A stretch of DNA of 64,000 nt. Source: Sanghuangporus weigelae (Eukaryota; Basidiomycota; Agaricomycetes; Hymenochaetales; Hymenochaetaceae). The notes beneath the pieces are model-generated. The model searched no databases, was not told the DNA's origin, and saw only the letters and a list, made by a program, of their open reading frames with translations. Below, one piece after another: positions 5,745 through 33,441 of this stretch; position 1 is the first letter of the stretch, and each line of letters opens with the position of its first letter. The DNA lies in assembly GCA_033182465.1 (NCBI GenBank), contig CP137326.1, positions 1,829,501 through 1,893,500 on the forward strand. The letters are read 5' to 3'. The position numbers and the translations under genes are program-made.

Positions 5745-6905
5745 TTTTGTGTTGGTGAATTTTATTTGTCTTTCTTGTACGATTGCATTTTATTTCCTCA
5801 TAGTCTGCAAATTTCAGGACGAGATATTTTCTTTTATCTTTCTTCCCGCCAGTGTAAAAGCTATTTCGGCAACTCCCGCGGAATATCAGCTCAGCTTGTA
5901 TTCTTGACTCTCACCATCAGTATCCAAATCGACGACTGTTGTGCCTCACTTGTATTGATCCTTCTCAATGCATCCAATCACGTCCAACGCAGATCACTAA
6001 GCTCACACCTTCCCTTCTGACTACCATGTATCCGTACTACCTAGGTGCAGGATTTCTTGTGATCTTCATATTGAAACGTATACTTGTCGTTGTAAAAGCA
6101 CACTCGGTAAGGACCATTACATTCTTATCTGCTGTTTATTTGACATTTCTACTCTCATCATCAGAGCCATGACAGACGTCTACCACGATTGATCACAACG
6201 ATTCAGCCTATGTCTGCCATCGGAGCGATCCTTCCCAGGACACCCTTTCATCGCGGACTGGGCTTCCCTTGGTACGAAAGAAAGACCTGTGAGCTATCAA
6301 TCGACCAATCTTGATTATTTGCTTCTAACATCTGAAGTTAGTGTACAGGGACGCAAATCTGAAGACAGTCGTCACCATTCCGCTTTTCTACGGCCGGGAT
6401 ATCCTCTATACCTCTAGTCTCGCCGTATTCTATCAATGTCTTTCTTTCAACGCTCCATTCGACAGACCCGATATGGACCTACTGCAGTACGTCACTTCTA
6501 TAAAATTCACCGAATTGGCGTTCACTGAATATACCTTATTTCGCACGTTTCAGAATAATGGGTGATAATGTCGTTACTTCTGAAGGCGAGGATTGGAAGA
6601 GACATCGACGTATTGTCGCTCCTGCATTCAATCATTCGACGTATCGGAATGTTTGGGAGACGACTGCTAAAGTGTATGAAGATATGCTCAGGCAGGAAGG
6701 ATGGGAACATGTAGATACGACTCCTCCTGCGGAGTTCAATAAGATCACACACAAGGTAAAAGGCATCATGTTTCAAGCAGAGCTTTGAAATAATTATTGA
6801 TTACGTTCCACCCCTCAGCTAGCACTCTTCCTGATCGCAATAGTCGGGTCTGGTATCCCTATGTCCTGGTCTGAGCCACCTCGAGACGAGAATGGTCGTC
6901 TCTCA
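5745..6905 (+). repeat. Tandem duplication, unit 1 (P450 5' flank and first half)
   Basis: This unit begins just after the MRT4 stop and runs through the 5' flank and first exons of the intact P450. Its partner is at about 8315-9470 in the same orientation. Shared landmarks include TTGGTGAAWTTTATTTGT near the start, the block before the ATG (CCAACGCAGATCAC), and coding blocks such as EGEDWKRHRRIVAPAFN. Homology stops abruptly inside the exon at TCATCTCTCA in copy 2. Confidence 0.85.
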
Positions 6906-8268: not shown

Positions 8269-8314
8269 ACCCAGAAGCGCAGAGATTTGTCCCTCTGTCC
8301 CGGAGAACCTTATC

Positions 8315-9470
8315 CTCTTCAGTTGGTGAAATTTATTTGTTTTTCCTGTACTGCATTTGGGCTCTGCTTTTTTTTTCAGGACGAAGTAATACTCGCATTT
8401 TTTCTTCCAAATTTGAGCTATTTCGGTACATTCTGTGGACTTCCAGTTCAAACTGTAATCTCAACCCCCACTACGAAATCTATTTTGACTGTTGCGTCTC
8501 CTCTTGTACTGTTATTCTTCTCGATGCATCCAAATGCGCCCAACGCAGATCACCAAGCTCGGGCCTTTCTTTCTGACTACCATGCACCCATACTACCTAG
8601 GTGCAGGATTCTTGTTGGTTTTCATATTGAATCGTATACTTGCCGTTCTTAAAAGCACACTCGGTAAGGACCATTACGTTCTTATTCACCGTTCATTCGA
8701 CACTTTTACTCTCATCAGAGCCATGACAGACGTCCACCACGCGTGATCACAACGATCCAGCCCATGTCTGCCATCGGAGCGATCCTTCCCAGGACACCCT
8801 TTCATCGCGGACTGGGCTTCCCCTGGCTCCAAAGGAAGGCAAATAAGTCATCAACCATTCAATTTTGGGATATTTTCTCTTGATTCGGTTCCATTTTCTG
8901 GACGTAGTGTATAAGGACGCGAATCTAAAAACGATCGTTACCATCCTGCTTTTGTACGGCCGAGATATCCTATACACGTCTAGTCTTGCCGTATTCCATC
9001 AATGTCTTTCCTTCAACGCTCCATTCGACAGACATGGTATGGACTTACTGCAGTACGTCATTATATATAAAGAGTCCCAAATCCGATTTGACTGGGAGTT
9101 TCTTGAAAATATTGCGCGTCTTTCTCAAGATAATGGGTGACCATGTCATTACTTCTGAAGGCGAGGATTGGAAGAGACATCGACGTATTGTTGCTCCTGC
9201 ATTCAATCACTCCACGTATCGGAATGTTCAGGAGACGACTGATAGTGTACGATGATATACTCGAGCAGGAAGGATGGGAGCATGCAGATGCAACTCCTCC
9301 TGCGGAGTTCAATAAGATCACACACAAGGTAAGAGCCATCAAATCCCAAACAGAGCTTTGAACTGATTATTGACTACGTTCCACCCCTCAGCTTGCAATC
9401 TTCCCGATCGCAATCGCCGGGTTTGGTAACCCTATGTCTGAGCCGCCTCGAGACGAGGATGGTCATCTCT
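8315..9470 (+). repeat. Tandem duplication, unit 2 (truncated P450 copy)
   Basis: This is a direct repeat of 5745-6905, including the same upstream non-coding sequence and the first half of the P450. It lies 50 bases after the stop of the intact gene. Homology ends at about 9470 within the exon that begins SEPPRDEDGHLS; the following sequence is unrelated to the P450. Confidence 0.85.
8582..9470 (+). pseudogene. Truncated P450 pseudogene, tandem copy of the upstream P450
   Basis: The copy keeps the anchor (MHPYYLGAGFLLVFIL), the segment DANLKTIVTILLLYGRDILYT and the C-helix block EGEDWKRHRRIVAPAFN. Compared with the intact copy it lacks two bases near 9240, so the frame breaks after RNVQETT. 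It then ends before the I-helix, so no ExxR or heme-binding cysteine remains. It cannot encode a working enzyme. The good preservation of the first half suggests a fairly recent partial duplication. Confidence 0.9.
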
Positions 9471-10816
9471 CAGGTGTCATTAACAAGTTGAGGTCGGAAC
9501 GCAGTGCCGCTGGCAGTGTGTCGTTACGTTACGACTCCAAAACAATTATGTCTCCAAAAAAGAAACACTACCAACACATTGATATTGAGCTTGTGGATAT
9601 CAGAAATGTTAGAAACCAATCAATGATCGACTTGCATTCCGATAATCGGTGTTTCAGTACAACCTTTGTTCAGCTCTTGACATTCTCAAAAGAGATTGAT
9701 CTGAGCAAATCGATAGACGCTGTATGCTTCAAGCAGAGGCGCTATTGTCCCAAACGTCAATCAGCTCATCAACAGCTGCCTAAGATCTGAAACCAATCTC
9801 ACCACTTGCTACTGAAAGTCCATTATCTGATCGAACCAGGAACTCGCCCTTGAGACCATAGCATCCCTTGCAATTGCTGATCCACTATTTAGTGAGGTAC
9901 TCAATTCACTGAATGCTCTTCACTGCATCGGAGACATCTGTCTTCGTGATGATGCGGCTATGCACCCTTTCTTATCCTGGAAGGCCTTGATTTGTGTCAT
10001 CGAGAACGAAATCAACTCAGCAGGCCACGAGAGCCATATTCTGAGGCATGAGATGCTCAAAGAGGATTCAACGCTTAGAACAATCCAGGAGGCCTTCTTT
10101 CATAGGCTCCCTACATTCCGCAGATTGCATTCGCACAATAGAAATGATTGTCAATACGCAATACTGAACTCATCGTCTAGTTCTCCAGATACTGCCTACC
10201 TAGCTGTGCTTCATCCTGGATACTATTAACAAGATGCTTTCCTGCAGCTGAGTACTGTGAGATCCCAGCTATAATGCTGTATATTGACCGAACCGATCGT
10301 TTGTACAATGATACGAGCACTTCGTTGCATCACACAGTGTAGGTTTCACGCCGTACGCTCGACTGGAGCGCTGCAGCAAATGTCATCTTGACTGTACGGG
10401 CATATCGTTTATTCGCACAACTGGTGAAATCCGACCGAGCCCAGAGATGCGATGATTTAGTGTAAGTGATACCATAATCGCATACTTTCAATGCCATTGA
10501 GCTTATGCAACTTGAAATCACCATAGGTCCTTGATCGTGTCGAAATATCCGAAATTGTTCAGAAGAGAAGCTGTAATTAATTATCTGAAGTTCAGAGACC
10601 CTGGGAGTAACGTTATTGATGGGAGTCTGATGGGAGTCCTAGTTTCATGTAGATAAAGAAATCCAGCGACAGATAGAGGTACCAGATTATTTCTCCTTGG
10701 ACGTAGCTGTATCCCATGCGTGTTGGATCATAAAGATGTCTTGTCTATAATCTGCGAGTTTTGTCGCATCTGCCAGGGTCGAAGTGATGGCACGTGGCAC
10801 GATAATCAATTGCTAT
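9471..10816. other. Unassigned DNA between the P450 pseudogene and the TIR element
   Basis: Several open stretches exist on the plus strand, such as 9434-9790 (continuing from the P450 fragment into RYDSKTIMSPKKKHYQHIDI) and 9840-10229 (WKALICVIENEINSAGHESH). None matches a family I know and I cannot join them convincingly. They could be remnants of a decayed gene into which the P450 fragment was joined. No RNA gene or clear repeat seen. Confidence 0.4.
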
Positions 10817-11165
10817 CACACCGGGCAAAGAGTTATTATAATCTAAAAGAAATTTATAATTAGCTGACAAACAAGATTTGAAATTAAATACTGCATTTAA
10901 TTACGTGAAATATTTCATGTTTGTTCCTTGATAGAACTTGAAATAACAATAAGGATTTAGATTCGGATTAGGAAAACAAAGAGATTTCAAATAATGTCGT
11001 GTGAGGAACACATAAAGAAACTTGAAGTCTTAGAAAAGCAAAAATGGTTAAGTTTAGTTATTGCTGAAATTTTATGTCTTTGATAGGAAAAAATTTAAAA
11101 TTCTTTTTATTATTCTGACAAAGAAAAAATAAGTTTGACTCTCAGTGGGCGCTCAGCGGGCGATC
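10817..11165 (+). repeat. Left terminal inverted repeat (349 bp)
   Basis: AT-rich for about 330 bases, then entering the GC-rich 11-bp array at CTCTCAGTGGGCGC. It matches the reverse complement of 13098-13446 without visible gaps. Confidence 0.9.
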
Positions 11166-11270
11166 GGCGGGCGATCGGCGGGTGATCCGAGGGCGATCCG
11201 AGGGCGCTCAGCGGGCGCTCAGAGGATGCTCAGCGGGCACTCAGAGGGCGATCGGCGGGCATTAGGAAGG
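11147..11270 (+). repeat. Left subterminal 11-bp tandem repeat array
   Basis: About eleven units with an 11-base period alternate between GGGCGCTCAGC and GGGCGATCGGC-like forms. Such subterminal arrays are transposase-binding sites in some DNA transposons; that role here is inference. Confidence 0.85.
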
Positions 11271-12730
11271 AAGCCACCTTCGGATCTGTAACATCGACAC
11301 GGTAGCGATGCTCGAATTCGCGATCATTGATACCGAACGTTTTAATGCTCTGTCTCTCAATGAAAGTCTCATCCATGCCACCTTTGCCATAGACGAACTG
11401 TATGAGATTACCCAACGAGTTCCGAACAGTCCCGTCATAATGTACCATGGTCTTCTAGAGTCTTGACAAGCCGCCGTTGGATGTAGCAAAATCTCCGCCG
11501 TCTTGACAGCCGTGTCAATTAATCCCTCGCGACCCGCCATGGCGTGAAAGAAGAACTCTTGCGGTGTTAATCCACGCAAGTAGGAATTCTCAATGAAACC
11601 CGGCGCCTCTGGACTGAAATCATCCTTCATGAAGTGCGGTAGTGTTCGATGTCTGAAGCCGAACGGGATACACTTCCCTTCCACGGATTGCTGACCGACG
11701 CAAACAGACATCTGGGAGATGTTGATGAAGGAACCCTGGGAACCAGCGACTACCATCTGCTTGGCATTATTGTCCTCTTTGTGGTTCTCCTGAGCATATT
11801 GACCAGAGGGATCACGAGCCAAATTGAGCTCCCGTTCGACTTGACTCTCGAAGGATTCGTGGATAGTCATACCCGGAGCTGCTTTCAGGCGATCCATGGC
11901 CGCATCTTCTATGACTTTGGCAACATTCTGTTTCCGCATCTTAATCTGCTCCGTGATGTACGCCATCGTTTTTCTGTCTGCAACCGTATCGCCGATACCG
12001 ATACTGAATCCATTGTGGAACAGCCAATAATTGACGATATTCTGCAGACCCGTAAAGAGCGATCGTGTAGCTTCAGGACCTTTCTCTCGGAAAACAACGT
12101 GCATCAGGCCGCCCTGGGATGCGCCAACGGTCTTCTTTCTCAACAATACCAAAGATGATCTCGCCATTCTCGATCAGTATGCCATCATCGAAGACAGGAC
12201 TCCATGACTTGTTCTCGGGCGACCGGAAAATGTTGATCCCACGCGGGATTGTCATGCTAAGAATTTGCTTGCCCGTCCATAAAAAATTGGGTTTCAAAAT
12301 GGTTGGTGTTGGGATCGTGCCGTCCCAATTCGGTACCCAAAGCAGTATATTCTGTACTTGTTGCCAATCAAGGGAACAACCTCGCAAGGTGAACTTGCGG
12401 ATACCGCAAAGAGTATCCTGCACGATACCAATAACGGGCTTGTTCGCTTGGGGCGAAATGATCTGCCTGGGGACCCATTCTATTTGACTGAGCTCGGCCC
12501 GAGTCTCCTCACTACACGAAGATGAGAAACGGCAGCACAAGGCGGCAGTGATACGACGTACTGCATGTTCATTTCATCACCATCGAAGTCGGCATTGTAC
12601 GGAGGAGTAATGGAAAGATTGAGACGAACGGTTGCATAGAATTGGTCAGAGTTCAGACATGAACATATAGGTCGACACTTGAATAGGGCATTAGTCGGAT
12701 CCTGTGACACATCATAGACCTTTGTGCGTG
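11262..12730 (-). pseudogene. RPB1: Captured fragment of RNA polymerase II largest subunit (RPB1), broken
   Basis: The fragment reads strongly as Rpb1 from around the active site onward. It has [11 protein letters not shown] (the catalytic Mg-binding loop), then [95 protein letters not shown] and [11 protein letters not shown]. That is roughly 400-430 residues of a protein of about 1,750. A one-base gain near 12140 and at least two small losses around 11440-11480 break the frame. A segment just after the catalytic loop has GTACGT...GTAG ends like a retained intron, so capture was probably from genomic DNA rather than mRNA. Both ends run into transposon sequence. Confidence 0.93.
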
Positions 12731-12947
12731 CAATTATGGCTGTCTGTTGAAGAGGACATAACTGCGTTGATAGATAAATGAGACTAGATCAGGCGCTACT
12801 GAATGGTAGACTTACTCTCCGTTCATTAAGTGCCTTTCAAAGATCCATCCATACTGAAGAAATGCATCTGCATGCTTATTTTATTGAAGAGCTATATAGA
12901 GGATGCATGGACTGGTTAAGCATTGTATGTATGGTGAAATATCAGGA

Positions 12948-13118
12948 TTGCCCGCTGAGCGCCCTCTGAGCACCCTCTGATCGCCCGCTGAGTGCCCTCT
13001 GAGTGCCCGCTGAGCATCCTCTGAGCGCCCGCTGAGCATCCTCTGAGCGCCCGCTGAGCATCCTCTGAGCACCCACTGAGCGCCCTCGGATCGCCCGGAT
13101 CGCCCGCTGAGCGCCCAC
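12948..13118 (-). repeat. Right subterminal 11-bp tandem repeat array
   Basis: About fifteen 11-base units, many reading GGATGCTCAGC, GGGCGCTCAGA or GGGCACTCAGC on the minus strand. It mirrors the left array but is longer and differs in unit order, which shows that the arrays change faster than the outer repeats. Confidence 0.85.
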
Positions 13119-13446
13119 TGAGAGTCAAACTTATTTTTTCTTTGTCAGAATAATAAAAAGAATTTTAAATTTTTTCCTATCAAAGACATAAAATTTCAGC
13201 AATAACTAAACTTAACCATTTTTGCTTTTCTAAGACTTCAAGTTTCTTTATGTGTTCCTCACACGACATTATTTGAAATCTCTTTGTTTTCCTAATCCGA
13301 ATCTAAATCCTTATTGTTATTTCAAGTTCTATCAAGGAACAAACATGAAATATTTCACGTAATTAAATGCAGTATTTAATTTCAAATCTTGTTTGTCAGC
13401 TAATTATAAATTTCTTTTAGATTATAATAACTCTTTGCCCGGTGTG
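13098..13446 (-). repeat. Right terminal inverted repeat (349 bp)
   Basis: Reverse complement of 10817-11165 with no difference noticed on reading. Near identity implies recent insertion or recent homogenisation of the ends. Confidence 0.9.
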
Positions 13447-16143: not shown

Positions 16144-18077
16144 TCAGGACTTCGTCACTGTGCGAGACCGCGAAGACCTTGATGGCTTCCTCTCCGTCCC
16201 AGTCGCAGGGTCATAGGCACCTTCTTGAGCCTTCGACCCCCTCGATCTTGTCCTACTACTCGACATCCCTGCATTGATCCCCATATCCTTCCTGGGTTCC
16301 TGTGCCGTCTCCTCCTCATCTTCTCGGGCTTGCCAAGTTGCATATTTAAACTTTCTCCTGCACGCACGGCTTCCCGATTCCTGATATTCCGCCCGTGTCA
16401 CACAGACGTTGGCAAGTCCTGGTTGGCGCGCAAATTCAGCCCCAGCCAGATAAGCAGCTATGATTGGACTGCGAGTCAACGCATTCTTAGCTCTCCCCAA
16501 GGCACAGAGTTCGCGTGCACCTACTTGGATGATTCATATATGCGGACTTCATGTTCAGCAGGCGCCAGACTTCGCAATTCAGTCATCCTGATCATGCATA
16601 ATCATTTCGTGAAAACTTCAGATGGAGCTTAGATCCAGAAGCACCTACAGTCTATTCCGGAACCCAGGTAGTCTCGCATTCCCGCCGATAATGCCGATGT
16701 TCGCCCAGAACAACCCTTGCACGTCCTCAGGCAACGATGATATCGCGTCTGCGATCATATGGGATAGGCCAGCTTGGAGTAGTCCTGACAGAACATGAAT
16801 TATTTGGATTGGATGCCCTACTATTCAAAGAAGCTCAAACCAATATCACTGGGCCTGAACAGAAGCTCCCCCACAGCGAACCGCTCGGTGTTCATCCGCA
16901 GCACATCGTCTTCTCCTGTCAAAACATCTTCTTGGGTTTTTACCCTCCCCGGACGGTTCTCCGAGTATCTCGGCAATATGTATTCCTGTACGATCTTCGA
17001 CGATTCGAAGCTGCAAAGCGGGAAGATCGTGAGCCCACGCAGCAACATCTGTGACGCCGCCTACCGACTCAGTTCCATGTCTTCCTTGTAATTTGTGGAC
17101 ACGTAGCAACAACGCTCCTTTACATCATTCGTGATGTACGTCTCGCCCATCAGGTCATACTGTCGGAACGAGAGCAACTCCTTCAGGTAGTTCGTCAGAA
17201 GTTTCCCTCCAACGTCCAATCTATGCATCCGCATCTGTTAGCCCGGTTGTGTTGAAAAATCCCGACCCAGTCCACAGCACAGACCAGACTCGCCTTCGGA
17301 CACTCTTCCAGAGAACCTTCCCGCTCATCAACGGCACAACATGTGTGAAGCTATATCCAGAGTCGACGATCAGCATGCATTCGGGAGCGCCATGATATCC
17401 TTCGCTACCAAACAGAGCCCCGTATGGCTGCAGAGACGCGGCTGAGCGAATCTCACCATCAATTACAGGCTACATCCGCAGTGAATCATATTACTCACGT
17501 GCACAACGGTAGCAAGACTGGAAATCGTACTCCTCGAACACAAACTGGTCATACTGGTCCTGGATGTTTGGCAGGTTGAAGTATGGCTCAGTGATAATTA
17601 GTGACGTCTCGCTTGTGTTGACCTAACAAAACTCAGTGACAATACGACTCTTGCAGAATCATTTCACGTCGTACCTTCACTCCATCTTTTGCGTAGAATA
17701 GTCCGTCCCAAATAGCCTTTTGGGCATCCCAGTCTGTCAAGTATCCCTGTATCCAATGGCGTCAAAGTCCGGTCATTTCGGCCATCAGCGCGAACACGCA
17801 CCCGTTCAAAAGGGAGGCGGAAATGCAGGGAAGAGAAATCTCTGCATCGATCGAACTCGTGCCCGAAGAACGTTTTCTTTTCTCCTTTTGTCTGCCGAAC
17901 GATGGCGTTCGTCACAATTCTGATACCGGAATGAGCGATGCAGTCTTCAGAATATTGCGTTCTTAACACTTGCCTCGCATCTGCTGGCAATGGCTCCTCG
18001 TGACCACCTGGCGCGACAATACCGATCTTGATAGTTGATGCTCCATTGTCAAGCACGAGGACTGGTGTCGGCTGCAT
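16144..18077 (-). CDS. ARP6: Actin-related protein 6 (SWR1 complex), intact copy
   Basis: ARP6 is a nuclear actin-fold subunit of the SWR1 remodeller, which deposits histone H2A.Z. The start [18 protein letters not shown] is the first actin nucleotide-binding loop. Further exons give [55 protein letters not shown] (second nucleotide loop), [40 protein letters not shown] and the C-terminal [13 protein letters not shown] followed by a basic, disordered tail. About seven introns are required; the one after KSVRR reads best as a GC-AG intron (donor AG|GCGAGT). With these the frame is open throughout, so this copy appears functional. A degenerate second copy lies at 31509-33441 in the opposite orientation. 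Confidence 0.9.
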
Positions 18078-18425
18078 TCTCGGTGCTCACCAAAGCATGT
18101 TGGCGGTTCCAGTCAGGGTCACAGCTGAGTTCTAACCGAGGCGCGTTCACGCGTCTGAGTCACGCTTTCTTCCGACCGTCATGTGCGCCGGGTCTCACAA
18201 AAATCATGCATTAATTCCTAAATTATTCCTTAGACCTTGACCAGATTGGAGGACTACTTGTCTAGGTAATACTCTAGTATTAGTGGTGTTACTGCGGTCA
18301 TGTATCAAACTGTTCTGCTCTGAAGGCGTCAGTTACTCAGATTCGGCAGCAGAATACATTTATGCATCCGCCATCTCTGGATAACCGCCTGACAGGGGCA
18401 TCTAACATCTTTGCTCAGCTGCAAC
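18078..18425. promoter_or_regulatory. Divergent promoter between ARP6 and the TANGO2 relic
   Basis: The 348 bases between the two start positions are partly conserved with 31147-31508 in the other arm, in inverted orientation. Shared blocks include the stretch near GCCGGGTCTCA and the block ending GCGGATGCAT. Conservation between duplicates marks a single ancestral promoter region. Confidence 0.6.
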
Positions 18426-19515
18426 ATGTGCGTTGGTTTCTGGTCCCTGGATCATACGGACTATGCCCTGTGCGCGGAAGAACATATCCATCATATTTAT
18501 ATTCATAATCTCCCTTAGTCCTCCCTTCACAGAATATTGTGTTCCGATCCCGACGAATATCTCTCACGGCCGACGTCTACTGCACACTTCCACTGCTTTG
18601 GGCCCGAGCTAGATTTGGATGTCAACTCTGGCTGCGACCTCAAGGTAGGCGGATCCTAGTCCGGCAGTAACCGTGTGAGCCGTGTCGCCCTGGTGTTGGT
18701 ATCAGTACACAACAATTTGAAGTCTGTCTTGCCCTGTTGTTGATTAGGTTATACAAACGAACATCTCTGATGCAGAGGGTACCCTGTACAAGGAGTCCAT
18801 GGGACTTCTCGTCTTCTCGTTCCTAGTCCCGGTGGCACCCAACGCTAACCACTTCGTCGACCTGCTCGAGAGGAAGCGTTCGACAGATTATGCAGGATTC
18901 AACCTTCTCCTGCTAACGCCGATGAGCGGAGGCGAGTCAGGTGCATGCCTACTTGCCTATGGTGCATCGCTGATCGCAAATTCCGGAAGTCACGGTGCGA
19001 TCATCAAGCGAGACCCCCTTCCAGTCAGAAGAGCGCCGTGCAGGGACCATCCCGAATGGCGTGGATAGCCCCGACGGACGGACATTCGGTGAAGAAGGGC
19101 GTAGCCAGCTTGACAGAGGCCCCCACATGCAGACAATGCAAACGAGCGGAAGCTGTCTGAGGATAAGCTTGTTGAGCACTTATTCGGGATTCTCTCGTAA
19201 GGGACAATCACGAAGGTTCAAGTCGTTGTTCACTTTGCTTCATGGTCGATGGCAATGTGAGCCGCCCCCCATCGACCCGTCTTCCGCCACGCGACTCGAT
19301 CCAGACACCTCCATTGCTCCCGCGCAACGGCATTTCTTCAAATGCCGGGCGGGGTGGAGGTACGAAATATACGGCACGCGGCTTTCGACGGTCTTGTGTT
19401 AGTCAGGCGAAATGATCGTGTTATGCTTAATGAGAGGGATGTACGGAAGGTCAGTGGGGAGGGGGACGGCTGTCCGTGGTGATCCATGGGAGGCTCGTAT
19501 CTTTCGCTGCACGGT
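18426..19515 (+). pseudogene. Dead TANGO2 (NRDE-family) copy in the left arm
   Basis: It begins MCVGFWSLDHTDYAL, matching the start of the live copy, and keeps the exon with RPTSTAHFHCFGPELDL. In the signature block the Asn and Arg of SNRDE have changed (giving SDPDE), part of the next segment is lost, and a stop replaces the conserved Trp of GGSWFG near 18655. Later pieces (GRTFGEEGRSQL-like, and YEIYGTRLSTVL near the end) match the live gene in shifting frames. Several independent lesions show it is no longer coding. Confidence 0.9.
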
Positions 19516-20247
19516 AAACATCCAGAAAGAGAGTGAAGACGATCCCCCAAGGGGAAGAACCTGGACTAGCACGGACTTTTTTTCTCTCTTGGTAAAGTAG
19601 CACAGCCATTGTTCAGGAGACACCTGAGGATTATCCGCAACGATGGTTGAAAGCCCCAGAAAATTTGTGGCGTAAAGAAGGGCAGAGATTGGGACTGCGT
19701 AATATTTGGTATTCTGACAGCAAGACAAATCCATGAAACTTACCATTTCGGTTCGTTCGGTGTGTCCAATGGCTTAGTGTTAAGTTTAAGGAAAGCTCCG
19801 TTAAGGCATTTGGTAAGTGAGAAGGGCGCTAGTATCACAATGCTGCTGGTGGAAGTCAATATAATGCCGTAAAAGCCTTTCCGAATCCTCCTGCGTGATG
19901 GTTTCTGATAAGACCAGGGGACAGATCTTGTTTCGACATTGTCATACTCCGTTTGATGAGTTGCACGTAATTTCGGTTACTTACTGCTGAGTCTATCGGG
20001 AACAACTCGAGATTATCTGGCCTGTCGATGTAGGGTGTCCTTCATAGTGCGAAGGCAAAGTCCGAGATGAGAAGCTTTAGACATAAAAGCAAAAACAATA
20101 CAGTGTCTGAATGAATAGATGCTGGCAAGCTGGTCCGGCTCGCCTAACAGAGTCTGATCGATCTTCCCAGATTCTCGCGTTCACATTGAGTTGCGTAGAG
20201 AAGACCCAGAAGGACTCCTAGAACGAATATTAAACTAGCCACTTGTT
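19516..20247. other. Intergenic, nothing recognised
   Basis: About 730 bases between the left arm and the phosphatidylserine synthase. Short open frames here match nothing, and no repeat or RNA gene was recognised. Confidence 0.4.
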
Positions 20248-22449
20248 CTATTTCCTAACAGCCTTCTCTGGAAAAACTGGCGCGAATACAACTTGGCGCG
20301 CCCCCCGGACGCGAGGCACAAGAAGTGAGAGAAAAAATACCTTTGTACAAAGAAGGATTCAAACCGACTTTACACGCAGTTCCTTCCGGCGTCGCCTCAG
20401 ATAACGCCTTACACTCGGTATACCAAACTACAACGAAAATCAAATCATGTCAATGTCCTATGTATTGTAACAGCCAACTTGCCTTCGTCACCGGATAAAG
20501 AATGAAAAGAACTGCGCCAATGACCCACGCAATTTTAACATGTCTCGGGAAGGGCTCGGAAAACTGGTTCTTGCTCCATTTTCTGATCACCACTATCTCG
20601 GTCACGACTGTAGCAAGAAGCAGCCAGACGTGAGAACCCATCCGCTTGACTCTCCTATTGAACTTCAGTTGATATCAGTTGACACTATTACATCTGATAA
20701 TATTTCTTACCTGGAGTCCCCTGTATACTGATACAGCTCCCTGACCGCTGGGAGTCCACATATGAAAATGCCCGCAAGCCTTGAGATGACAATTGGATGG
20801 CTTGGTTCCATCCAAAGCAAGGTCTAAGCAAGGTTTAAGCCGAATCCCCAAATCAATAGTATGTGCACATGCCTTGAGATAAAAAGGGTTTAGTTCTGCA
20901 GCAAGGAAAACTGCTAACAGCAGGACGACAGTGACGTAAGAATGAAACGAGGCTGTTCCCTCCCATTTGAAGGCAGTGAAGTCATGAGGCGAAAACTGCG
21001 TAATGACGCGTTTTGTCTTTGAACGGAAACCACGACTCTGTCGAAGGCTTCGCCATTCATAATGCTAACACAAGAGGAAGACGCGAGGATCAGGTGTGAA
21101 AGTTTGACAAACGGGAATCTACAAAAGCTTACTTTCACTTCAAAATATTGGCAAGTTTTCATGCCTATTTTAGACCCGAGTGTCAGATGAAATACAGATG
21201 TGGGGAACAAACGAGTTTACCCAGGTATGTCCCGACCCAGTTGCACAAGAGGACATCTAGAACCCACTGGTAGTGCTGATAAGCGCGAGGCCCATGTTTA
21301 TATGCAGCAACTCACATGATCCCACCAGCACTAAATGAGAATCAGAAGATTTGGAGAATGAAACCAATATCTCAAGCTCACCTCTGCGAAATTGGGAAGC
21401 TGATGTTGGAGACTATACTCGGCAAGCTCAAAAGCAATGCTCAGGATCTAATCTAGAAAGTCAATCGAACGTATAAACCGGGTGAAACTGAGAATACCCA
21501 GCAGAACCAGTAGTCTCTAAGGATAAGAGCTTTCCCGAACCAACCTAAAGCATGAGCAAGGCAAAAGATATCAATTGCGCCCTAAATAATTGACTAAATA
21601 TGGAAAACCCGAACTCGAAGATAAGAAGAGGCATACCAGAATGTTGCTTATTGTGAAGTCGCAATTGTCCGCGTAACCTTTTTCTGGTAATGGGACACCA
21701 AGATTAGGATCAATATGTTTCAGCATCTGCCGCGCGGTGCCTAGGTCTTGAAAAAGCAGGAACACTAGTGCAAGCTCATAAAGTAAATTTACTCCTAGAA
21801 CGATGCGCCAGAATGCAGGGTGAGGTCGGACAAACGGACCGTCCCGAAATTGCAATGTCGAAAAGAGCAAAAAGAAAGAGACAGCCGCATAAACGCCTCT
21901 GTGACAGGCATCAATTACGTCTGGATAGTACGAGAATCTGGCAAAATACCTACAACCGACGCTTATCTTTCCCTTCCGCCAATAGATCCTCGGTTGTCGC
22001 AACATAGGCCATCAAAGCCATTCCAACTGCCAGAGCAGACAGAGTTAACGGATGATAGAAAAATCTGACCCTTCAAATGAGATACTATAGTGCATTTAAG
22101 TGTCGTGGTGCTTACTCGACACTAGTATCATGTCTCTCCGCGAAAGGCTCTATTTTCGTGTAAGGTTCGTTACGATCAGCCTATTGCAAAATTAAAAATT
22201 AAAGTCAAGAGGTTTCATGGTGTCGAGCTAAACAGTCACTGATCACGCACATCATACCCTTTACAGAAGTTCAGGCAAACTCGTCTTAAAACAATATATC
22301 ACAGACTTACAACGAACTGGGGCACCATTTAAGCCAGGGTTAGGCTCGGTTTCCGGAGGTGACAAGAAGCCAGAATCTGAATCTTCAATCGGCGACGTGG
22401 CAGGCAAGTCTCCCTCATCTCTGTTCGATACAGCTTGCTCTGCAGACAT
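20248..22449 (-). CDS. Phosphatidylserine synthase, PTDSS (base-exchange) type
   Basis: The protein belongs to the family of animal and plant enzymes that swap serine for the head group of an existing phospholipid at the ER. It is distinct from the CDP-diacylglycerol enzyme Cho1 usual in fungi. Diagnostic segments appear in order: YYPDVIDACHRGVY; HIDPNLGVPLPEKGYADNC; FELAEYSLQHQLPNF; then, across an intron, [63 protein letters not shown]; and SHVWLLLATVVTEIVVIRKW near the end. Many transmembrane segments are present. About ten introns fit, one best read as GC-AG (after ELNPFYLK). A small last exon gives EKAVRK and a stop at 20248, less certain. The start MSAEQAVSNRDEG is a disordered N-terminus. 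No broken frame was found. Confidence 0.9.
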
Positions 22450-25400
22450 CTCGGGCCTCGAGCTTCACGATGATATCGTAGTGGTCGTGGTTCAAAAGAA
22501 AGAATGGTTAAAAACACATGTTGTAATTGTCCACAACAGTGGTTGTAGCCACTTCGACGTCGAGAGTGATGACGTATGTAATGCACGTGGTACGCGGACC
22601 CTAGAACTTCCAATCCTAGTTGATTAGCATGCAGATCTTCACTCCACGCAGACCAAAAAGTAAATATATATATATACTTTATTATATACTTTTCCGAGTT
22701 CTTGACGTCCTGCGTAATTTACCGACTCTGCTTGCTCTGACATTAAAGGGAACAACAGGAATGTTTTGAAGGTCTCTTGCCTCTCACGAGCACTGCTTTC
22801 GACGAATGCCTTGTCGACAAGAAAATAATCGTAATCTCCGAGTCTCAACCGGTCCAAGGATGTCGGAATTTTCTTGATATTATGGGCGTGCGTTTATCCT
22901 ATATGAAGCGGGTCCTTCGGGCTGATTGTCGGAGCAAGTCTAAAAGTCTGAAACGATAGCGCAGATAGTCAGGATCTAAAAGTCATCTCCAACGTAGCGA
23001 ACCAGTTGTGATCGTCCTCAGAGTTATCTGGTGCGCTCTGTCTCCGCCTCCCTGAAAATCATCGTGACGTCAACATTAATTATCCAACCATAGCGCAAAA
23101 CCTTCAAAAATGCTACGAAAGTCTTGATTCTATCGCCACTGACTTAGACGACCGGTAATTACTCTTAAGGTAACCCCAGTGTATAGCAGATTCGAAAGCA
23201 TCAAAGTGTAATCCTTGATATCAGATGGGAATACTCATCCAAAAATCCAGCTCAACAAACGTACAAAGAAAGAGCATATGACAGATTGAGATTGGCTAAG
23301 TTAAAGAGTTGGGAGTCCGTAGGCGCATGTGAGTGATCGCTTGCGTCCTTGCAGGCCGGTGCGGACTGACCACGAGATACCTTATCATAGGGTGTATTGG
23401 AAGCAGGCGAATCCGGCCAAGAACTTTTCGGCACCCTTCGCTCGAAAGAGAAAAAAGCACGGAAGTATTATTGGTCGAACGAAGGAAGACATTCACAGCT
23501 TGGGTACTGTACGCACTAGAAAGACCCCCGGAAGGACACGAGGACAATTCGAACAGTGTGAGAATGGTTGTAACTTCTCCGATAAAAACCAATTCTCTCG
23601 CATTTTTATTGGTTGTCGGCTACCGAGAAGGCGAGTTTTTGAGCTTTGAGGGACCCGAGCGCATCAACACAACTAAAGTTTTGCTCAGATGACTCCGCCA
23701 CCAACGGAGACTTACCTGGCGAGATCAAATTACTGGTACCAAGTTATCCCCGTCGAACCACATGAACTCCCCTATCCAGAGGTCCTATCGTGTAGCGAAT
23801 ACTTCTTCATTTTGCCATCTTCGGTTAGAGTCCGCAGGGTGTGAAAAGAACTTTTGAGTCTAGGTCAAGGCACTTGCGTGAGGCTTGCCTGCCAAAAGCC
23901 TAAAAGCTACCCGTTTACTAGAGAAAAACATCCCACAGATTCCAAATAAAGATTAGTAGTGTGAATAAATTTCGGATGAGGACAGCGAATGTCCCGTCCT
24001 GTGAAGGCGTGGGAAACATTGCGACATTTAGATATCCTGCCTTACGCTTCACTTCTTTCTCTTCTCCCCCCTTGGCGATAACTGTACCTTGGGCAAACAT
24101 AGCGAGGAACAGAGAAAAGGATGAAAAACAAAGTAAGCTGTCCTTCCCAGAATATCATTAGCGGACAGTAACTCGGACGTTGCGGCTGACCGAATTCAAA
24201 TTCCGGTCTCCAGTCCGCCGGCCTCGTCTTCGCAATTTGATCCCACAGAATCTCGGTCCGTTCGGCAGCCTAGTGAACTCGCAGTTCAACCTCGGCAGTG
24301 AGTGATGATCCTCAAAAGAGGAGCTCAGAAACGGAGGAGTTTATGTTTACGATGTGCCTCCTGACACCCCCTAAAAATCTGCTTTTAAAGTACTTCGGGA
24401 TTCTTGACTTCCTCCTGAGAACCGTAGGATTTCCCTTTTCCCCCAAGCGAATGTCCCTGCATCATCCGATTGTATCACGACGGCGGGTACACCGAGGATT
24501 CGGATAGTTATTGCAAGCATTGCCTTACGCGATTGGAGTCTGGAGGCACTACCAGCATGATGGCTCTCCACGTTCGTACACGCTTTTAGCGTACCTTTCA
24601 TATCATCCAGTTCGCCCTATTCCTCGTCACTTCTCCGCGGAAGCATGGCAATGGCAATGGAACGACTTCTCTGGCCGTTCCCTTTGTGGATTGCCAATTC
24701 ACCGCCGCCCATCATTCTCATCGCGGCCGTTTATTCCGTTCTAAGCATTCAAAGAGCGGCGAACTCGATGATATGGTCCTCGACGCCCGGTTAAGATTCG
24801 TGGAAGCTGAGCCTTTGAACTGGGCCAACGTGTCTGACCACGCGGCATTCCAAGGCACCGTTATCTTACATCGTCCCGCTGCTGTTTCTGGCCCGCGACC
24901 TGCGGCAAGCAATTGCATTGCCTGATTGTATTCGTTTCTGGCGCCCAAGTGACGAAATCAGTCGGTGTGTTCTTCTGGCTGCAAGAATAGCTTGAAAGGA
25001 TAAGGAGCTCATAGGTCTCTTTTATTGGATCTATCGGTTTTCAGCAAATCCCTTTCGGGTACGGGGTCGTCCGATTAGCTTTGTTGAACTTCAAGAAGGA
25101 TCAGAACGTCAGGAAGGGTGCCAGACTTCATATCGATGTGTATTACATATCTCCCAATGGACCAAGGCGGAGGACACCACGCTGCGTTGTCCTTGGAAAT
25201 TAGGGGTTAACATCTCTAATGACCATGCAGCGCGATTTTTTTGAGGTATGAACCGTCTTAGGTGTCCTTTGCCTGTGCTTACTGATCAATCCCTCGAGAA
25301 GTAACAATGTGCTTCGGACGCGGCCCGATCGAGACACTTTATTCCTACTCTATTCATGTACTCGCAGAACTCTCTCCGCTCGACCCTCCAGGCCGACTTC

Positions 25401-27812
25401 CAGCTTTTCTTCCGATCACGATGTGGCGTCTTCATATTGCGGCCCATCTCGGAACCATCGCCTTCCCATATATATGTACATGCGTAGGAGGCAAGAGTCT
25501 TGCATTTTCGGTATGCGGGGACCTGAAGCAATCCCTACAACCCCTTTTTGATATGTTCGGCTGCGTTCTGTTGTTCGGTGCGCCATGTCTGATCGTGCGC
25601 GAGTTCGTCTTTTCTGATATGCTGAGCCGAAGGTCTTCGTCTGCACGGATAAGCCTACGCTTTTAGTTTACGACCAGTGCATTTGGGCTACTGACTACCA
25701 AGAACTGGATACAAGGTTACTAAGGCGAATCTATTTTCCGTACTCTCTCTGACAGCATATGATGATGGCGCTTGATTATGCTTCTGTTTCTCCTGGCTTC
25801 AAATTGTTCGGCAGATTCCTTATGATACTGAGGAAGAAACTACGCGTGGTCATAACCAGCCCTGAAATGGATAAGTTACTGACTGCCTCCGTTTTGGAGG
25901 CGGAAGATGAGCTGCTCAACGAGCTGGTTCACTTTTCTGTCTGATTGTATTATCGGCTCCTATTACTATGTGTCTTGGCATTCTTGCATCTTTGCATGTC
26001 TGGACCTAGAAGGATTGCGTCCATTCCGAATCTTTCCTGCCTGAGAATGTCTACCCACGCGTCACGGCCGCAACGCACCATCAGCTGAGAAGCCTCCTGA
26101 TCGATATTGATCACCAAATCTTACTCAATTGGATTCACCACCAAAATCCTCCTCGTAATTCCTGTATGCGTTGTATATAGGTAAAGCTCTTGTCCGGAAA
26201 GGCTTGGCTTCAATTTCAGTTCAGTCTTCTGGATCCTGATGGAATATAACTCGCTGCGCTTGACCACCGCGGGGATTGGTCGATATACATTATTGAACAG
26301 GATGAAACGCGTGATTTACTAACTTTTGGTCTTGTAGTAGTCATGAACTCGGTGCGAAGCTTCCTTTCTCTTCGTCTGGATCCTCGCTACGTGTTCGAGC
26401 CTATCGTCTTTTAATTTTGCTTTAATTTCTCTCTTCATGACATGACTTCGCACTTCTTCACGGATGGAATATACTTGCGGAAGGGTAATTAGTTTCCCCT
26501 TCAAGCCTTCCGTGATACACAAGGAAACTACTTTAATAAAAGGGAAAAGGAAGCGGCGCTTTCCATATTATAATGATGCTGTGCCTTCGTCATACGTTAC
26601 ACGAGGGAAGAACGACTGCTAGCCCCAGCGGCTCATCATCTGGATTACCTGTTATTGGTTCTCTGAGCCGAGAGAACCGAACGGTAAGTTGAGCATTACT
26701 GAATAGCATCAGCGGGCCATCTACTTTGCTTCTCATATCATGATGGGGCTCGATCCATCTGAGCTTCTGCATAATTGACATAAAACGATGCCGTGAGTTT
26801 CACTGGAAGTCATCGGTAGTTGAGTACGAGTTACGGTATCGACGGGTCGAGTGACTTATGGAGGGTGAAAAGCCACCGTTTTGTTTGCGATGCCGCCCGC
26901 CGTCGAACAAGTGATATCGGGAGGAAGAGACTTCTATTATGGAATAGCAAGATTCCGTTTTATTTTTATTTTATTTAGTAATAAAATAAGTTGGACCTCT
27001 GGCACTGCCGGGAAAACCCTACGTACGTACGTACGTGTCCCGAAAAGGCAAAAGGGCGAATCAGCAAGTTAGCGATCCTCCAGTTACTTACTGGGTAGGC
27101 CTTCCGATCTCGTCCTAGCCGACTGTTTCGCTCTTCTATTCCTCTTCCAAGCAGGCCCTCCCTTTCTGCCCGACCATCGCAGACTGGCTTGGAAAAAGGG
27201 ATCGTTTATTTCCGATAGCCGAACGATCTAGGCGTACCCGGCTCCTCCGGATGGCTTCGCTGCCCGGCGAGTCCGTAGCATTGGGGTACGCGCATAATGA
27301 ACAAACGGGTCTGCGATAAACAACATCGATGTATGAGAGCGTCTTGAACTGAATGTTTCTGTCCAGTCGTCATAGGGCCGGACGGCTGATGCTACCACGT
27401 GTGGTTACAAATATGATTTGATAGTCCTGTCTGTTTTTTTCACATCTATGATCTCGATCTTCATGTAAGTGAGAGTTGTTACAAGAAATGCCTAATTTTA
27501 ATTTAATTCATAATTTCCCGTGTGCACAGGTGGGAAGGAAGAAAGAGATCGAGTTGCGACATCCGGAAACGCTTCAGGTATCAGACGATAACAAAGAGAT
27601 CTTCTCAGCCCAGGCATCCGCCCCATATTTGGTCTTCATACAAATCCAAGAGATGCACGTAAGCATAAACTCTTGTTGATACGGACGTTTATTTTTAATC
27701 TCCCGTTCTTCGTTATAAACGCCTCGTTTCAGCACTTCCGTGCCTTCGATACCAGTCTTCACTGCCGCATCCACTACTGCGCGTCTGACCTTCCTCTGTG
27801 ATAAACGATACC
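22450..27812. other. Large unexplained region between the two arms
   Basis: Over 5 kb holds only scattered open frames on both strands. Examples are 23333-23692 plus (HPSLEREKSTEVLLVERRK), 24686-24925 plus (RLRFVEAEPLNWANVSDH), 25301-25666 plus, and 26319-26522 minus (YSIREEVRSHVMKREIKAKL). I recognise none and could not link them into gene models. Bases 26200-27340 have a base pattern unlike the neighbouring genes. Small features are a TA microsatellite near 22663, a perfect stem-loop at 26966-26989 and four ACGT units at 27021-27036. Confidence 0.5.
26966..26989. repeat. Perfect AT stem-loop
   Basis: Ten-base arms TTATTTTATT and AATAAAATAA enclose a four-base loop TAGT. The arms are exact complements. 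It could be a chance AT palindrome or a relic of a transcript-end hairpin. Confidence 0.7.
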
Positions 27813-29379
27813 ATGTTCGCCGCTGATTCTCAACCACATGTCATAAAGGGCGACTTACTCGACATTGACTTTACTATGGACATGGACCACCGCAAGCGTC
27901 GTAGGAATAGGACGACTCAGTCTTGTCTTAACTGCCATACTTCTAAGCGCAAGGTATGCATTAGCAAGGCCTTACTGTTCATCCGAGTTAACGATCCCCA
28001 TCTTCAGTGTGATCGTAAAAGGTTGGTCGCATGGTAATGAAGACCGTCGGACCAAAAATACTGACAAAATGGATGTGAATATCAGGCCTTGCCAGAGATG
28101 TATTCAGCTTGGACTTGTTCGTGTCTACCCAAACTACTTTCACGTAAGAATCTCATAAGAAACTCTAGACAGGCCTGTGCGTTTATGAGGTGGATGATCC
28201 TGCCTTAAGGTTCGTCATTCTGTGATTACCGACAAGACACGGTATTTTTACCTTTCACTAGAGACGATCCGGACCTTGATGAAACGACTCGTCTGCGAAA
28301 CCGTATTGCAGAACTGGAAAGCCTTGTTCGTGAGTTACGTGGTATGTTTAATTGTCCACTCTCGGCGATATTCGGTGTCCTTACTTTGCTATCTTTCGTT
28401 AATAGGCAAACCACACCCTCGGTGGGCGGATCCGAACTACTACGATGGCGACGCAAGCGACAAATGGCATACGCGATCCCAGAAACGCGGAAATGCAGCG
28501 GCAGCCGTAGCTCTAGCTAAGCAGCGCCGCCCACAGTCTCCCCATTTAGCGACGCCTATTATCAAAACGGAACCTGTGGCAGATGTGCAACATGCACATT
28601 GTTATTACCGTCTCTCGCCATCGCCTCCCCCTTCTGCTACAAGCACGACATATTCTATGAATATCGGGCAGATGCAGTCAAACCAATATGGAACTAACGC
28701 GTATCAAACCACATGCGCGAATGGCACCAACGGGGCGGCGGGATACTCTCCCGGAACATACTCTCCCTCTTCGTCTTCTTCAAGTGGATTGAATGGTATG
28801 ACATTTGTATAGTCTGCATGAGACCAGAGATGAATGTTCTGATATAGGCCATTCTCCAAACGGCATATATTCATACGAAGACTCTTGTGCATGCGTTTCC
28901 GATCCAGCAGCGAATCACTCATTTGTGGCTCTGGCCCGACAGCTTGAAGGAATGACAAGTTACCTTCAACAACTCCCTGGTCACTCTCAGACGAGATGCT
29001 CTATCTACCGGCATATTCAAAACCTCAAAGGCAGTCTTCAGTGCGTTTGACACCTGCGGTATTTCTTCCACTGATAAATCTGACACGGTGCCTTTCTAGT
29101 GGCGACAGTTCATCCGAGCCGACATTAGCCACGTCCTACACAAGTTACGACGGTCATACATCGGAGGCTCTTCGCTCGCCAGTGGAAACTGATTTGATGA
29201 CGCCTTTAACGACCATCTCAACATCTGTTCCAATGTCTGGACCTCCTACGCCCCACTCAATGCACATGCTACAATGGGGTACGGACAACAATGCACACCA
29301 TAACGGACATGTAAGCGCCTATTTCACAAATGCGGATGTATACGCAAAGGGCGTCGGTGCATATGACGTCGTGTCCTGA
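27813..29379 (+). CDS. Zn(II)2Cys6 fungal transcription factor
   Basis: The N-terminus carries RKRRRNRTTQSCLNCHTSKRK, then, after introns, CDRKRPCQRCIQLGLTGLC, giving the six-cysteine binuclear zinc cluster C-x2-C-x6-C ... C-x2-C-x6-C of the Gal4 class. A short Leu-rich coiled segment follows (LRNRIAELESLVRELRG), as expected for dimerisation. The rest is Ser/Pro/Gly/Asn-rich and disordered with SPPPSAT and SPSSSSSSG runs; no classical fungal middle homology region is evident. The zinc cluster is split by at least three introns. The ATG at 27813 is chosen because it opens the frame to the cluster with MFAADSQPHVIKGD. Targets are unknown. Confidence 0.88.
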
Positions 29380-30029
29380 AGGCGAGTTTCTCGTACCCTC
29401 GTAAATTTTCCTGCGCTCGGAACTGCTACCGTCTTCCCGGAGGCACAAACATTTTCATATACCGCAGCTCAGTTTGCTGCCGTGTGCTAGCGATATATAG
29501 TCGCCTCGGACCTTCTTGGCCCCTCCACCCATGATGTCTTTACGTTTTCAATGTCTCCGAGCTGATGTGTCCTTCGCCCGACATGCCTCTCATATGCTAT
29601 CCGCATCGTGCCTCTGACGAGTTGTATGTACAAAATCTCAGGCTCGGCATGCGAAATTTTCGAGCCTTTCATGTCCTGTCAACACAGCATTTATACCCTT
29701 ACGTTTTGGACTGCATTAATCTTTGATGATCGGTTTCAATCTTCTCCATGACTTCTCACCAATGATAATCTAACGAATGCAATTCAATCCTGCGTCTGCT
29801 GGCGCCTGCTTAACTTTGCATTTTGAAATACATTGATATTTCCATTAGCGTGATAGTTGCGCCTTTGTATAAGAATCATTCTGTTCCACATGCGGGCCAA
29901 AATTCCTATGCGATATAGACTTCATCATCTGCGGTTAAACCTGTTTGTAACCCTGAGTGTAGGGGCGCCGACTAAAGAAACCTAAAGCTTCTACGCCACT
30001 AATTCAACGTTATTCCTGAGATGCCCAAC
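29380..30029. other. Intergenic, convergent 3' flanks
   Basis: The transcription-factor gene and TANGO2 point toward each other across 650 bases. This should hold both 3' UTRs. No gene, RNA or repeat was recognised. Confidence 0.5.
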
Positions 30030-31146
30030 TCAAACCTTTCTTAGATTATCAATCTGAAAGCGAAAGACGCGAGCCTGCCGAGGATCTCCACGGACTACAT
30101 TGCCCTCACTGTCCAGCTTCCAAAAATCCCTCTCAATAAACAAAGCCCGGCCATCCCGCCTTACCAGCAAGACCGTTGAAACTCGCGTGCCGTAGATGTT
30201 GTTCCTACCATCTGGCTCGGCATCGGGAGATAAACTACCTGACATATGTAGCGGCGGAATCTCGATCGAGTTGCGCAACTGAAAGCGATTTGATGGAGGC
30301 GGGTCAGATTGCCATCTGCCATGAAGAAAAGTGAACGATGAGTAGAATCTTCATGAGTGTCCCTTACGAGAGAATCCCGAACAAGTGCTCAACGAGCTCA
30401 TCCTCGGACAGCTTCTGCTCGTTTGCATTGTTTACATGTAGAAGCTCTCTCAAGCTGGCTACGCTCTTCTTCACCTTCGGCCATGTCCGTCCGTCAGCGC
30501 TATCCACACCATTCGAGATAGCCCCTGCACGGCGCTCTTCTGGAAGGAGGACCCGTTCGACGATTGCGCCATGGCCTCCGGAGTTCGTGATCAGCGACGC
30601 CTCATAAGCAAGCGAACCTGCTCCTGACTCGCCTCCGCTCGTCGGCGTTAGCAGGAGAAGGTTGAACCCGGCGTAGTCTGTCGAGCCCTCTCTCTCAAGC
30701 AGACCTACAAAGTGGTTGGCGTCGGGTGCCTCCGGGAGTAGGAACGAGGAGACGAGATGGCCCCTGGACTCTTTGTAGAGGGTGCCCTCTGCCTCAGAGA
30801 TGTTTGTCCTGCAAGTATCTTGTCAGTAACAGAGCAAAACAGACTTGAAACTACTGTGCACTAACAGAAGGGCGATACGACCGGCACGGTTGACACCGAA
30901 CCAGGATCCGCCTGCCTTGAGGTCACGACCAGATAGGACAAAGTTGCCATTCAAATCTGGCTCGGGCCCAAAGCAATGGAAGTGTGCATTAGACGTCGGA
31001 CGTGAGAGAAATTCGTCGCGATTGGAGCACAATATTCTGTAGACGTACGAAAAGCAAGGGATAAGCTAAGCCGAATTATATGATGGAAATTCTTCCGCGT
31101 ACAGAGCATAATCTGGATGATTCAGGGACCAGAAACCAATGCACAT
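30030..31146 (-). CDS. TANGO2: TANGO2 homologue (Ntn-type NRDE family), intact copy
   Basis: TANGO2 proteins are linked to Golgi organisation, lipid and haem metabolism; the biochemical role is debated. The protein starts MCIGFWSLNHPDYAL and joins across an intron to ILCSNRDEFLSRPT, carrying the family's Cys at position 2 and the NRDE signature. It continues with GGSWFGVNRAGRIALLTNI across an intron and DANHFVGLLEREGSTDYAGFNLLL. It then runs through GISNGVD-like and LSEDELVEHLFGILS segments. After an intron comes SDPPPSNRFQLRNSIEIPPL, then the conserved IYGTRVSTVLLVRRDG near the end. All exons join in frame with three or four short introns, so it appears functional. Its broken twin is at 18426-19515. 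Confidence 0.92.
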
Positions 31147-31508
31147 GTCCGTGTCGTGAAAGGATGTTAGATGCCCCTATCAGAGACACGTTATTAGCGG
31201 CTATCCAGAGATGGCGGATGCACAAATATAGTCTGCTGCCGTATTTGAACAGGTAACCGACGCCTTCAGAGCAGTACAGTTTGATGCACAGCGGTAGAAA
31301 TGCCAATAGAATACCACCTAGACGAGCGTACTACGATCTGGTCAAAGGCCAAGAAATAATCCAGGAATTGATGTATTTTTGAGACCCGGCGCACATGACG
31401 GTCGGAATATAAGAGCGTGACTCGGACGCGTGGATGCGCCTCGGTTAGAACTCAGCCGTGACTGAACTCTGACTGGAACCGTCAACATGCTTTGGTGAGC
31501 TTCTGATA
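31147..31508. promoter_or_regulatory. Divergent promoter between TANGO2 and the ARP6 relic
   Basis: This is the right-arm counterpart of 18078-18425. Conserved blocks include the stretch around GCCATCTCTGGATA on the minus strand and the GAGACCCGGCGCACATGAC block. Confidence 0.6.
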
Positions 31509-33441
31509 ATGCAACCGACACCGGTCGTCGTGCTCGACACCATCAAGGCTGGCAATGTCGTGCCAGGTGGCCAGGAGGAACCATTGGCGGAAGCAAGGCT
31601 GAAGGCTGCAACACTCATTCCGGTCTCAGAATTATGATGAACGCCGTCGTTCGGCAAACGAAAGGAGAAAAGAAAAATATTCATCGGGAATGAGTTCGAC
31701 CAATGCAGAAATTTCTCTTCTTTGCACTTCCGTCTCCCGTCTGAAAGGATGTTTGCGTTGATGTCCGAAATGATCGATATTTCGCGTTATTGGATGCGGG
31801 GTTACTTCTGGATACTTGTCAGACAAAGACTATTTGGGATGAATTGTTCCATGTAAAAGATGGACTGAGAGTATGATACGCAATAATACTGCAGTGTCAC
31901 ATTGTTCGTGAGAACACGATCAGGTCAACACGAGTGATACTTCGCTGCTCATCACCGAGCCATACTTCAATCTGCTAAACATCCAGGACCGGTACGATCA
32001 GTTTGTGTTTAAGGAGTATGGCTTCCATTCATGCTACCGATGGCGACGTGAGTGATATACTTTGCCGCGGAAGAAGTTTGTGACTGATGGTGGTATTGAT
32101 GCAGCCGCCTCTCTGCTACCATACGGGTCTCTGTTCAGCAGCGAAGCATCGGGGCACTCCCGAACGCAAGATGATCGTCGACTCCGGATATAGCTTCACA
32201 CATGTTGTGCCGTTGATGAGCGGGAAGGTTCTTTGGCAGAGTGCCCGAAGGCGGGTTTGGTCTGCGCCTGGGATGAGGTCCAGACCTTCCAAATCAGCCC
32301 AGCTAACTGATGCAGACGAACATTAGATTGAATGCTGGGGGGGCAAGCTTCTGATGAACTTCCTGAAGGAGCTGCTCTCGTTCCGACAATATGACCTGAT
32401 GGGCGAGACGTACATCACGAATGATGTGAAGGAGCGCCGTTGCTACGTGTCCACAAATTTCGGGAAGACGTGGAACTGAGTCGGTGAGCAGTGTCATTGA
32501 TTGTTGCCGCGTGCGCTCACGATCTTCCCGCTCTTCTACTCTTCCGCTTCCTTCTACTCTTCCGCTTCATCGTTCGGACAGATCCAATCCGTCAAAGATC
32601 GTACAGGAATATATATTCCCGAGGTACTCGGAGAACCGTCCGGGGAGGTTAAAGACCCAAGAGGATGTTTTGATAGGAGAAGACGATGTGCTGCGGATGA
32701 ACACCGAGCGGTTCGCCGTGGGGGGGGGGGGGGCTTCAATTCAGGCCCAGTGATGTTGGTTTGTGCTTCCTCGAATAGTAGGGTGTCTAATTCAAATAAC
32801 TCGTGTTTCTGTCAGGACCGGACAAGCCATACAGTCGCAGACGTGATATCATCGCTACCTGAGGACATGCAGGAGCTGTTCTGGACGAACGTCGGCTTCA
32901 TCGGCGGGAATGTGAGACTACCTGGGTTTCGGAATAGACTGTAGGTGCTTCTGGATCTAAGCTCCATCTGAAGTTTTCACGAAATGATATGCATGATCAG
33001 GATGACTGAATTGCGAAGTCTGGCACCTGCTGAACATGAAGTCCGCATATATGAATCATCCAAGGAGGTGCATGCGAACTCTGTGCCTCGGGGAGAGCTA
33101 ACATTGTGTTGATTCGCAGTCCCATCATAGCTGCTTATCTGGCCAGGGCTGAATCTGTGCTCCAACCAGAGTTTGCCAACGTCTGCGTGACACGGGCAGA
33201 ATACCAGGAAGCGGGAAGCCATACATACAGAAGGAAGTTTAAATACGCAACTTGGCAAGTTCGAGAAGTTGGGGAGAGGACGCCACAGGGGCCCGGGAAG
33301 GATACGGGGAACAATGCAGGGTTGGCGAGAAGCAGAACTCGATCAAGAGAGTCGAAGACTCAAGGGGATGTTGGCGACTCCAGAGCGGAGAGGAAGCTGT
33401 CGAGGTCTTCACGGTCTCGCGCGGCCAACAACAAAGCGTAA
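31509..33441 (+). pseudogene. Dead ARP6 copy in the right arm
   Basis: The relic starts MQPTPVVVLD but has lost most of the first nucleotide-binding loop (NGAST) and reaches stops within the first exon. Recognisable later pieces are [62 protein letters not shown], and RMNTERFAV next to a run of 14 G that replaces part of the following codons. The 3' end retains [15 protein letters not shown] and a basic tail. Multiple frameshifts and stops show loss of function. Confidence 0.9.

Follow-up and report, generated by a model that had tools for sequence, protein, structure and literature searches.

A 64,000-nucleotide stretch of the genome of the basidiomycete Sanghuangporus weigelae (contig CP137326.1, positions 1,829,501 to 1,893,500; hereafter "the window", whose own coordinates are used throughout) carries two inverted copies of a divergent pair of housekeeping genes, ARP6 and TANGO2. 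ARP6 is a nuclear actin-related protein and a subunit of the SWR1/SRCAP remodeller of H2A.Z. In the left arm ARP6 is intact and TANGO2 is broken, and in the right arm TANGO2 is intact and ARP6 is broken, so that one live copy of each gene is found within the window. We consider it very likely that the ARP6-TANGO2 pair was duplicated in inverted orientation, that the arms then lost opposite genes, and that they exchanged sequence by conversion.

Two inverted arms with complementary lesions

The whole window was compared with itself by BLAST, and the arms were aligned with MAFFT. A single gapped inverted match joins positions 16162-19508 to 33420-30059 (3458 columns, 207 of them gap columns, 76.8% identity, E-value 0.0); an ungapped repeat search recovered pieces of it at 78-92% identity. 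The arm ends given in an initial annotation of this DNA, 16144-19515 and 30030-33441, agree with the match to within about 30 bases. Its description of arms of about 3.4 kb in opposite orientation, each holding ARP6 and TANGO2 head to head, is borne out by the inverted match and by intron positions that correspond between the arms. Between its two coding ends the pair measures about 3.4 kb, and a spacer of about 10.5 kb (19538-30029) lies between the arms. The limits of homology fall no more than about 30 bases from the coding ends, beyond which identity in a forced alignment is 38% and 43%, and self-BLAST found no second copy of the spacer or of the outer flanks within the window. Around the four breakpoints, flanking segments of some 120 bases were compared on both strands; they have no words of 9 or more bases in common and thus offer no clue of a target-site duplication or microhomology.

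Spliced models of the intact genes were built by hand, with exon borders placed using family sequences and the result then checked; the 12 introns of these models are predicted from sequence. The left-arm ARP6 lies on the minus strand (18077 to 16144) and is open from ATG to stop through 10 exons encoding 471 amino acids. Its nine introns measure 52-73 bases; seven are GT-AG and two GC-AG, the latter being accepted because the conserved reading was kept. The short introns and the genes present have, in our judgement, a fungal look. The product matches the Pfam Actin family PF00022 over residues 3-405 (profile positions 3-410 of 410, 236 bits). Among solved structures it scored 310 bits against the ARP6 of 6igm, 188 against the ARP6 of 6gej and 147 against yeast actin, and by these scores it is closer to ARP6 than to conventional actin. 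The right-arm TANGO2, also on the minus strand (31146 to 30030), is open from ATG to stop through four exons encoding 313 amino acids, and Pfam PF05742 covers residues 1-283 (profile positions 1-255 of 257, 167 bits). Two distinct sequences among solved structures matched it, 9bwa and, as the best, the TANGO2 of 8sv7. The letters NRDE at residues 20-23, which we take to be the NRDE motif, align with NRDE in 8sv7. Searches in two collections, one prokaryotic and one viral, yielded no relative: TANGO2 gave 27 pattern matches among prokaryotic genome contigs, and ARP6 without its C-terminal tail gave one among viral contigs.

Lesions in the broken copies were counted by projection on the live gene models. 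The right-arm ARP6 (31509-33441, plus strand) contains 11 insertions or deletions (indels) in exons, eight of which are not divisible by three (one of the eight at the stop). Splice ends are altered in two of its nine introns, and there are no in-register stops. A stretch near its start is lost which, going by actins in general, presumably held the first nucleotide loop. The left-arm TANGO2 (18426-19537, plus strand, the 3' end being placed by forced alignment only) has eight exon indels, seven not divisible by three, although the counts in exon 4 are rough since that exon aligns at only 65%. It also has one in-register stop, lost acceptors in two of three introns and changes within the NRDE motif. 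In a protein-to-DNA search the dead loci matched as lower-scoring pieces spread over several frames.

The assignment of live and dead copies was further examined by outgroup polarisation, which is independent of indels and uses sites that differ between the copies and at which the outgroup residue matches one of them. The ARP6 copies differ at 109 positions; human ARP6 sides with the left copy at 27 and with the right copy at 7, yeast ARP6 at 20 and 2 (two aligned parts, 5:1 and 15:1), and yeast actin at 20 and 9. The TANGO2 copies differ at 98 positions, and human TANGO2 sides with the right copy at 15 and with the left at 1 (two parts, 10:0 and 5:1). Open readings, lesions and outgroup residues agree with the initial annotation, which had called ARP6 alive and TANGO2 dead in the left arm and the reverse in the right. 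Directional CpG decay, considered as a mark of silencing, gave no clear signal (34 vs 35 on the ARP6 side, 21 vs 14 on the TANGO2 side, 1 vs 6 between the genes).

Several features of the ARP6 copies were observed apart from the lesion counts. The C-terminal tail (16144-16347) extends about 67 basic and serine-rich residues past the actin fold and can be aligned in both copies, though not in the aligned human chain. The two apparent GC donors belong to the introns at 17221-17293 and 17920-17973. The dead copy also has GC at both sites, so that these donors probably predate the duplication. In the dead copy a perfect tandem repeat of an 18-nucleotide unit (two copies, 32533-32568) lengthens intron 6, and exon 7 contains a run of 14 G (32720-32733).

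Timing of the losses and competing histories

Because both arms hold both genes in the same head-to-head order and with the same intron positions, the pair existed when the duplication occurred. In the history that we favor, the divergent pair would have been copied nearby as DNA, with its introns kept, in inverted orientation. Two complete sets would have made either copy of each gene dispensable. Ordinary indels, substitutions and the loss of splice sites would then have inactivated TANGO2 in one arm and ARP6 in the other, so that the single working copies of the two genes now lie about 12 kb apart. At least one gene conversion between the arms would have followed their divergence. The surviving genes are presumably expressed and would be the sole working copies in the genome, and the losses would have been neutral.

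A tract at 16524-16689, common with 32900-33064, has three mismatches in 165 columns and spans one complete intron, in which the arms match throughout apart from one gap column; no permutation out of 2000 scored as high. It probably reflects gene conversion between the arms. The second-best tract, 17312-17372 (P = 0.02), was not used because it is coding, and the next four high-identity tracts (P from 0.08 to 0.83) were also set aside. The exons of ARP6 differ by 17% between the arms. Outside the near-identical tract introns differ by 26%, and noncoding mismatch amounts to 212 of 911 sites (23%).

Mismatches are concentrated at third codon positions in both genes (61, 58 and 110 at the three positions between the ARP6 copies; 61, 50 and 93 between the TANGO2 copies), a pattern that, on the evidence of these alignments, is a coding signature over at least part of the history. 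The initial annotation had proposed that the arms be aligned and the ratio of non-synonymous to synonymous substitution rates (dN/dS) computed for the gene copies. A copy that had been neutral since birth, compared with a constrained copy, is expected to yield a ratio of 0.5 or more. Bootstrap medians by the NG86 method were 0.29 (0.21-0.39) for ARP6, a value that is the same without the near-identical tract, and 0.32 (0.23-0.44) for TANGO2. Simulated neutral decay, with 0.08 to 0.15 substitutions per site assumed, predicts 3.8 to 6.4 in-register stops in the dead ARP6, where there are none (P 0.03 to 0.003), and this deficit makes it unlikely that ARP6 died right after the duplication. For the dead TANGO2 the expectation is 1.8 to 3.1 stops and one was found, which is no deficit (P 0.48 to 0.19). 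These comparisons suggest that the dead ARP6, and less surely the dead TANGO2, remained functional over part of the period that followed the duplication.

Several observations detract from the favored history. YN00 gave dN/dS values of 0.41 for ARP6 and 0.50 for TANGO2, which are compatible with earlier loss, and the NG86 dS of ARP6 (0.42) exceeds the noncoding distance of 0.28, against which dN would stand at 0.45 of neutral; the dN/dS result thus depends on the method. Only one in-register stop is present across both dead genes. Of the 34 positions informative in the human comparison, 7 support the dead ARP6, and the vote of yeast actin is only 20 to 9.

The alternative that survives best, though we think it rather unlikely, is that one arm had a nonfunctional copy of one gene from the start, through a damaged donor or incomplete copying, with a single later loss instead of two. 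The YN00 value for TANGO2 fits this reading. Against it, each dead copy covers almost the full length of its gene. The ratio expected of a copy dead at birth is 0.5, and neither NG86 bootstrap range reaches that value. NG86 and, for ARP6, the missing stops disfavor such an early death of the lost copies, though YN00 does not.

There is very little probability that the lesions are sequencing errors or products of wrong gene models and that all four genes work. Such errors would account for dead copies almost without in-register stops, which is unusual for old pseudogenes. They would not readily produce multi-base indels, lost splice ends, the lost stretch near the ARP6 start and the changes in the NRDE motif of TANGO2, and the outgroup residues, being independent of indels, favor one copy of each gene. 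Slighter still is the probability of an assembly artefact, in which two haplotypes or a foldback misassembly ended up in one contig: two diverged alleles joined head to head could look like inverted arms with one good gene each, but the homology ends within about 30 bases of the coding ends with flanks and spacer unduplicated, which is the main point against it, and the divergence of ARP6 exons and of introns, the noncoding mismatch outside the tract and the separate lesions of each arm also speak against it.

Inverted duplication followed by opposite losses thus remains the best explanation of the locus. The initial annotation had already read it as reciprocal loss after segmental duplication, with a divergent pair separated, and the common gene order and introns, the complementary lesions and the outgroup residues all sustain that view. 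It had also called the case clean. The complementary loss stands, and the cleanness does not: the conversion-like tract points to exchange between the arms, and the dead ARP6 appears to have been constrained for part of its history.

The region between the start codons

The ARP6 and TANGO2 start codons are separated by 348 bp in the left arm (18078-18425) and by positions 31147-31508 in the right arm. These regions are identical between the arms at 280 of 336 sites, compared with 441 of 599 (74%) in introns outside the near-identical tract (Fisher P = 0.0006). The excess lies at the two ends. Relative to introns, and uncorrected, the block on the ARP6 side is identical at 111 of 123 sites (90%, P = 4e-5), that on the TANGO2 side at 102 of 120 (85%, P = 0.007), and the middle at 67 of 93 (72%, P = 0.8), but the three blocks were chosen after a sliding window had been seen, which lessens the weight of these values. 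The middle looks free of constraint on this comparison. Divergence in the ARP6-side and TANGO2-side blocks is roughly 0.4 and 0.6 times that of introns, about as expected from constraint in one arm alone.

As a post hoc pattern in the alignment, the blocks appear to fit a pair of half-promoters better than a single, centrally placed shared core; constraint in one or both arms, or conversion, would also be compatible with them. A speculative extension, which we regard as doubtful, is that the locus is a natural dissection of a promoter, in which each half of a divergent promoter has been left serving one gene; the half-promoters would be separable, with no single shared core, and could hence be split without cost. 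If this were true and sister lineages had resolved the duplicate the other way, crosses between them would give progeny without ARP6 or TANGO2.

Known systems and other features of the window

Complementary loss of duplicates separates former neighbors, and conversion occurs between the arms of inverted repeats on mammalian sex chromosomes. In 2006 Scannell et al. reportedly described reciprocal gene loss in yeasts that followed a whole-genome duplication. The locus resembles known systems in part. Reciprocal gene loss in post-duplication yeasts is already in the literature (PMC2258174) and has complementary loss of duplicates in common with the ARP6/TANGO2 locus, whereas here the duplication is a local, inverted, segmental one of a single pair and the dead copies can still be read as pseudogenes. 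Loss at the duplicated loci DGS1/DGS2 of rice, which causes hybrid pollen sterility (PMC5555463), is likewise a complementary loss of duplicate copies, but here a single genome carries both losses, each in a different gene, and crosses are not known. Mammalian sex chromosomes carry inverted repeats (PMC3308322) whose arms, like those described here, have near-identical sequence in common, although the present arms differ by about 20% and show a single clear tract, a short one.

A literature search restricted to one open-licence library did not turn up the ARP6/TANGO2 locus itself. Reciprocal loss of duplicated genes is a familiar process, and this locus is a further, unusually legible case. 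Under the favored history, one readable locus shows how the members of a divergent pair can come apart with no chromosomal break between them, by duplication and then loss of opposite halves. With relatives added, the still readable dead copies would make it possible to measure the order of lesions, conversion between the arms and constraint on a two-way promoter. The locus also calls for care in annotation, where two genes each might otherwise be counted for ARP6 and TANGO2.

All 14 stop-to-stop open reading frames (ORFs) of at least 100 amino acids lying wholly inside the spacer were scanned with Pfam and two matched; under this length limit, domains encoded by short exons could escape notice. 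Phosphatidylserine synthase matches were found on the minus strand at 20675-21064 and 21571-22011.

Two other duplications lie to the left of the arms. At 10817-13446, inverted arms (349 nucleotides 100% identical and 454 nucleotides at 95%), with inner tandem repeats of 11/22 nucleotides, enclose a fragment that matches Pfam Rpb1 domains 2, 3 and 4 and the start of domain 5 over three overlapping frames and is apparently broken. One possibility is a recent terminal-inverted-repeat or foldback element with a captured part of the gene for the largest subunit of RNA polymerase II, the subunit type being a matter of judgement. At 5751-9472 there is a tandem duplication, 5751-6905 against 8322-9472, with 78.5% identity over 1183 columns. 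One ORF overlapping each of these copies gave no Pfam match; the ORF at 7807-8268, between them, matches cytochrome P450, so the repeated segment may correspond to the beginning of a P450 gene.
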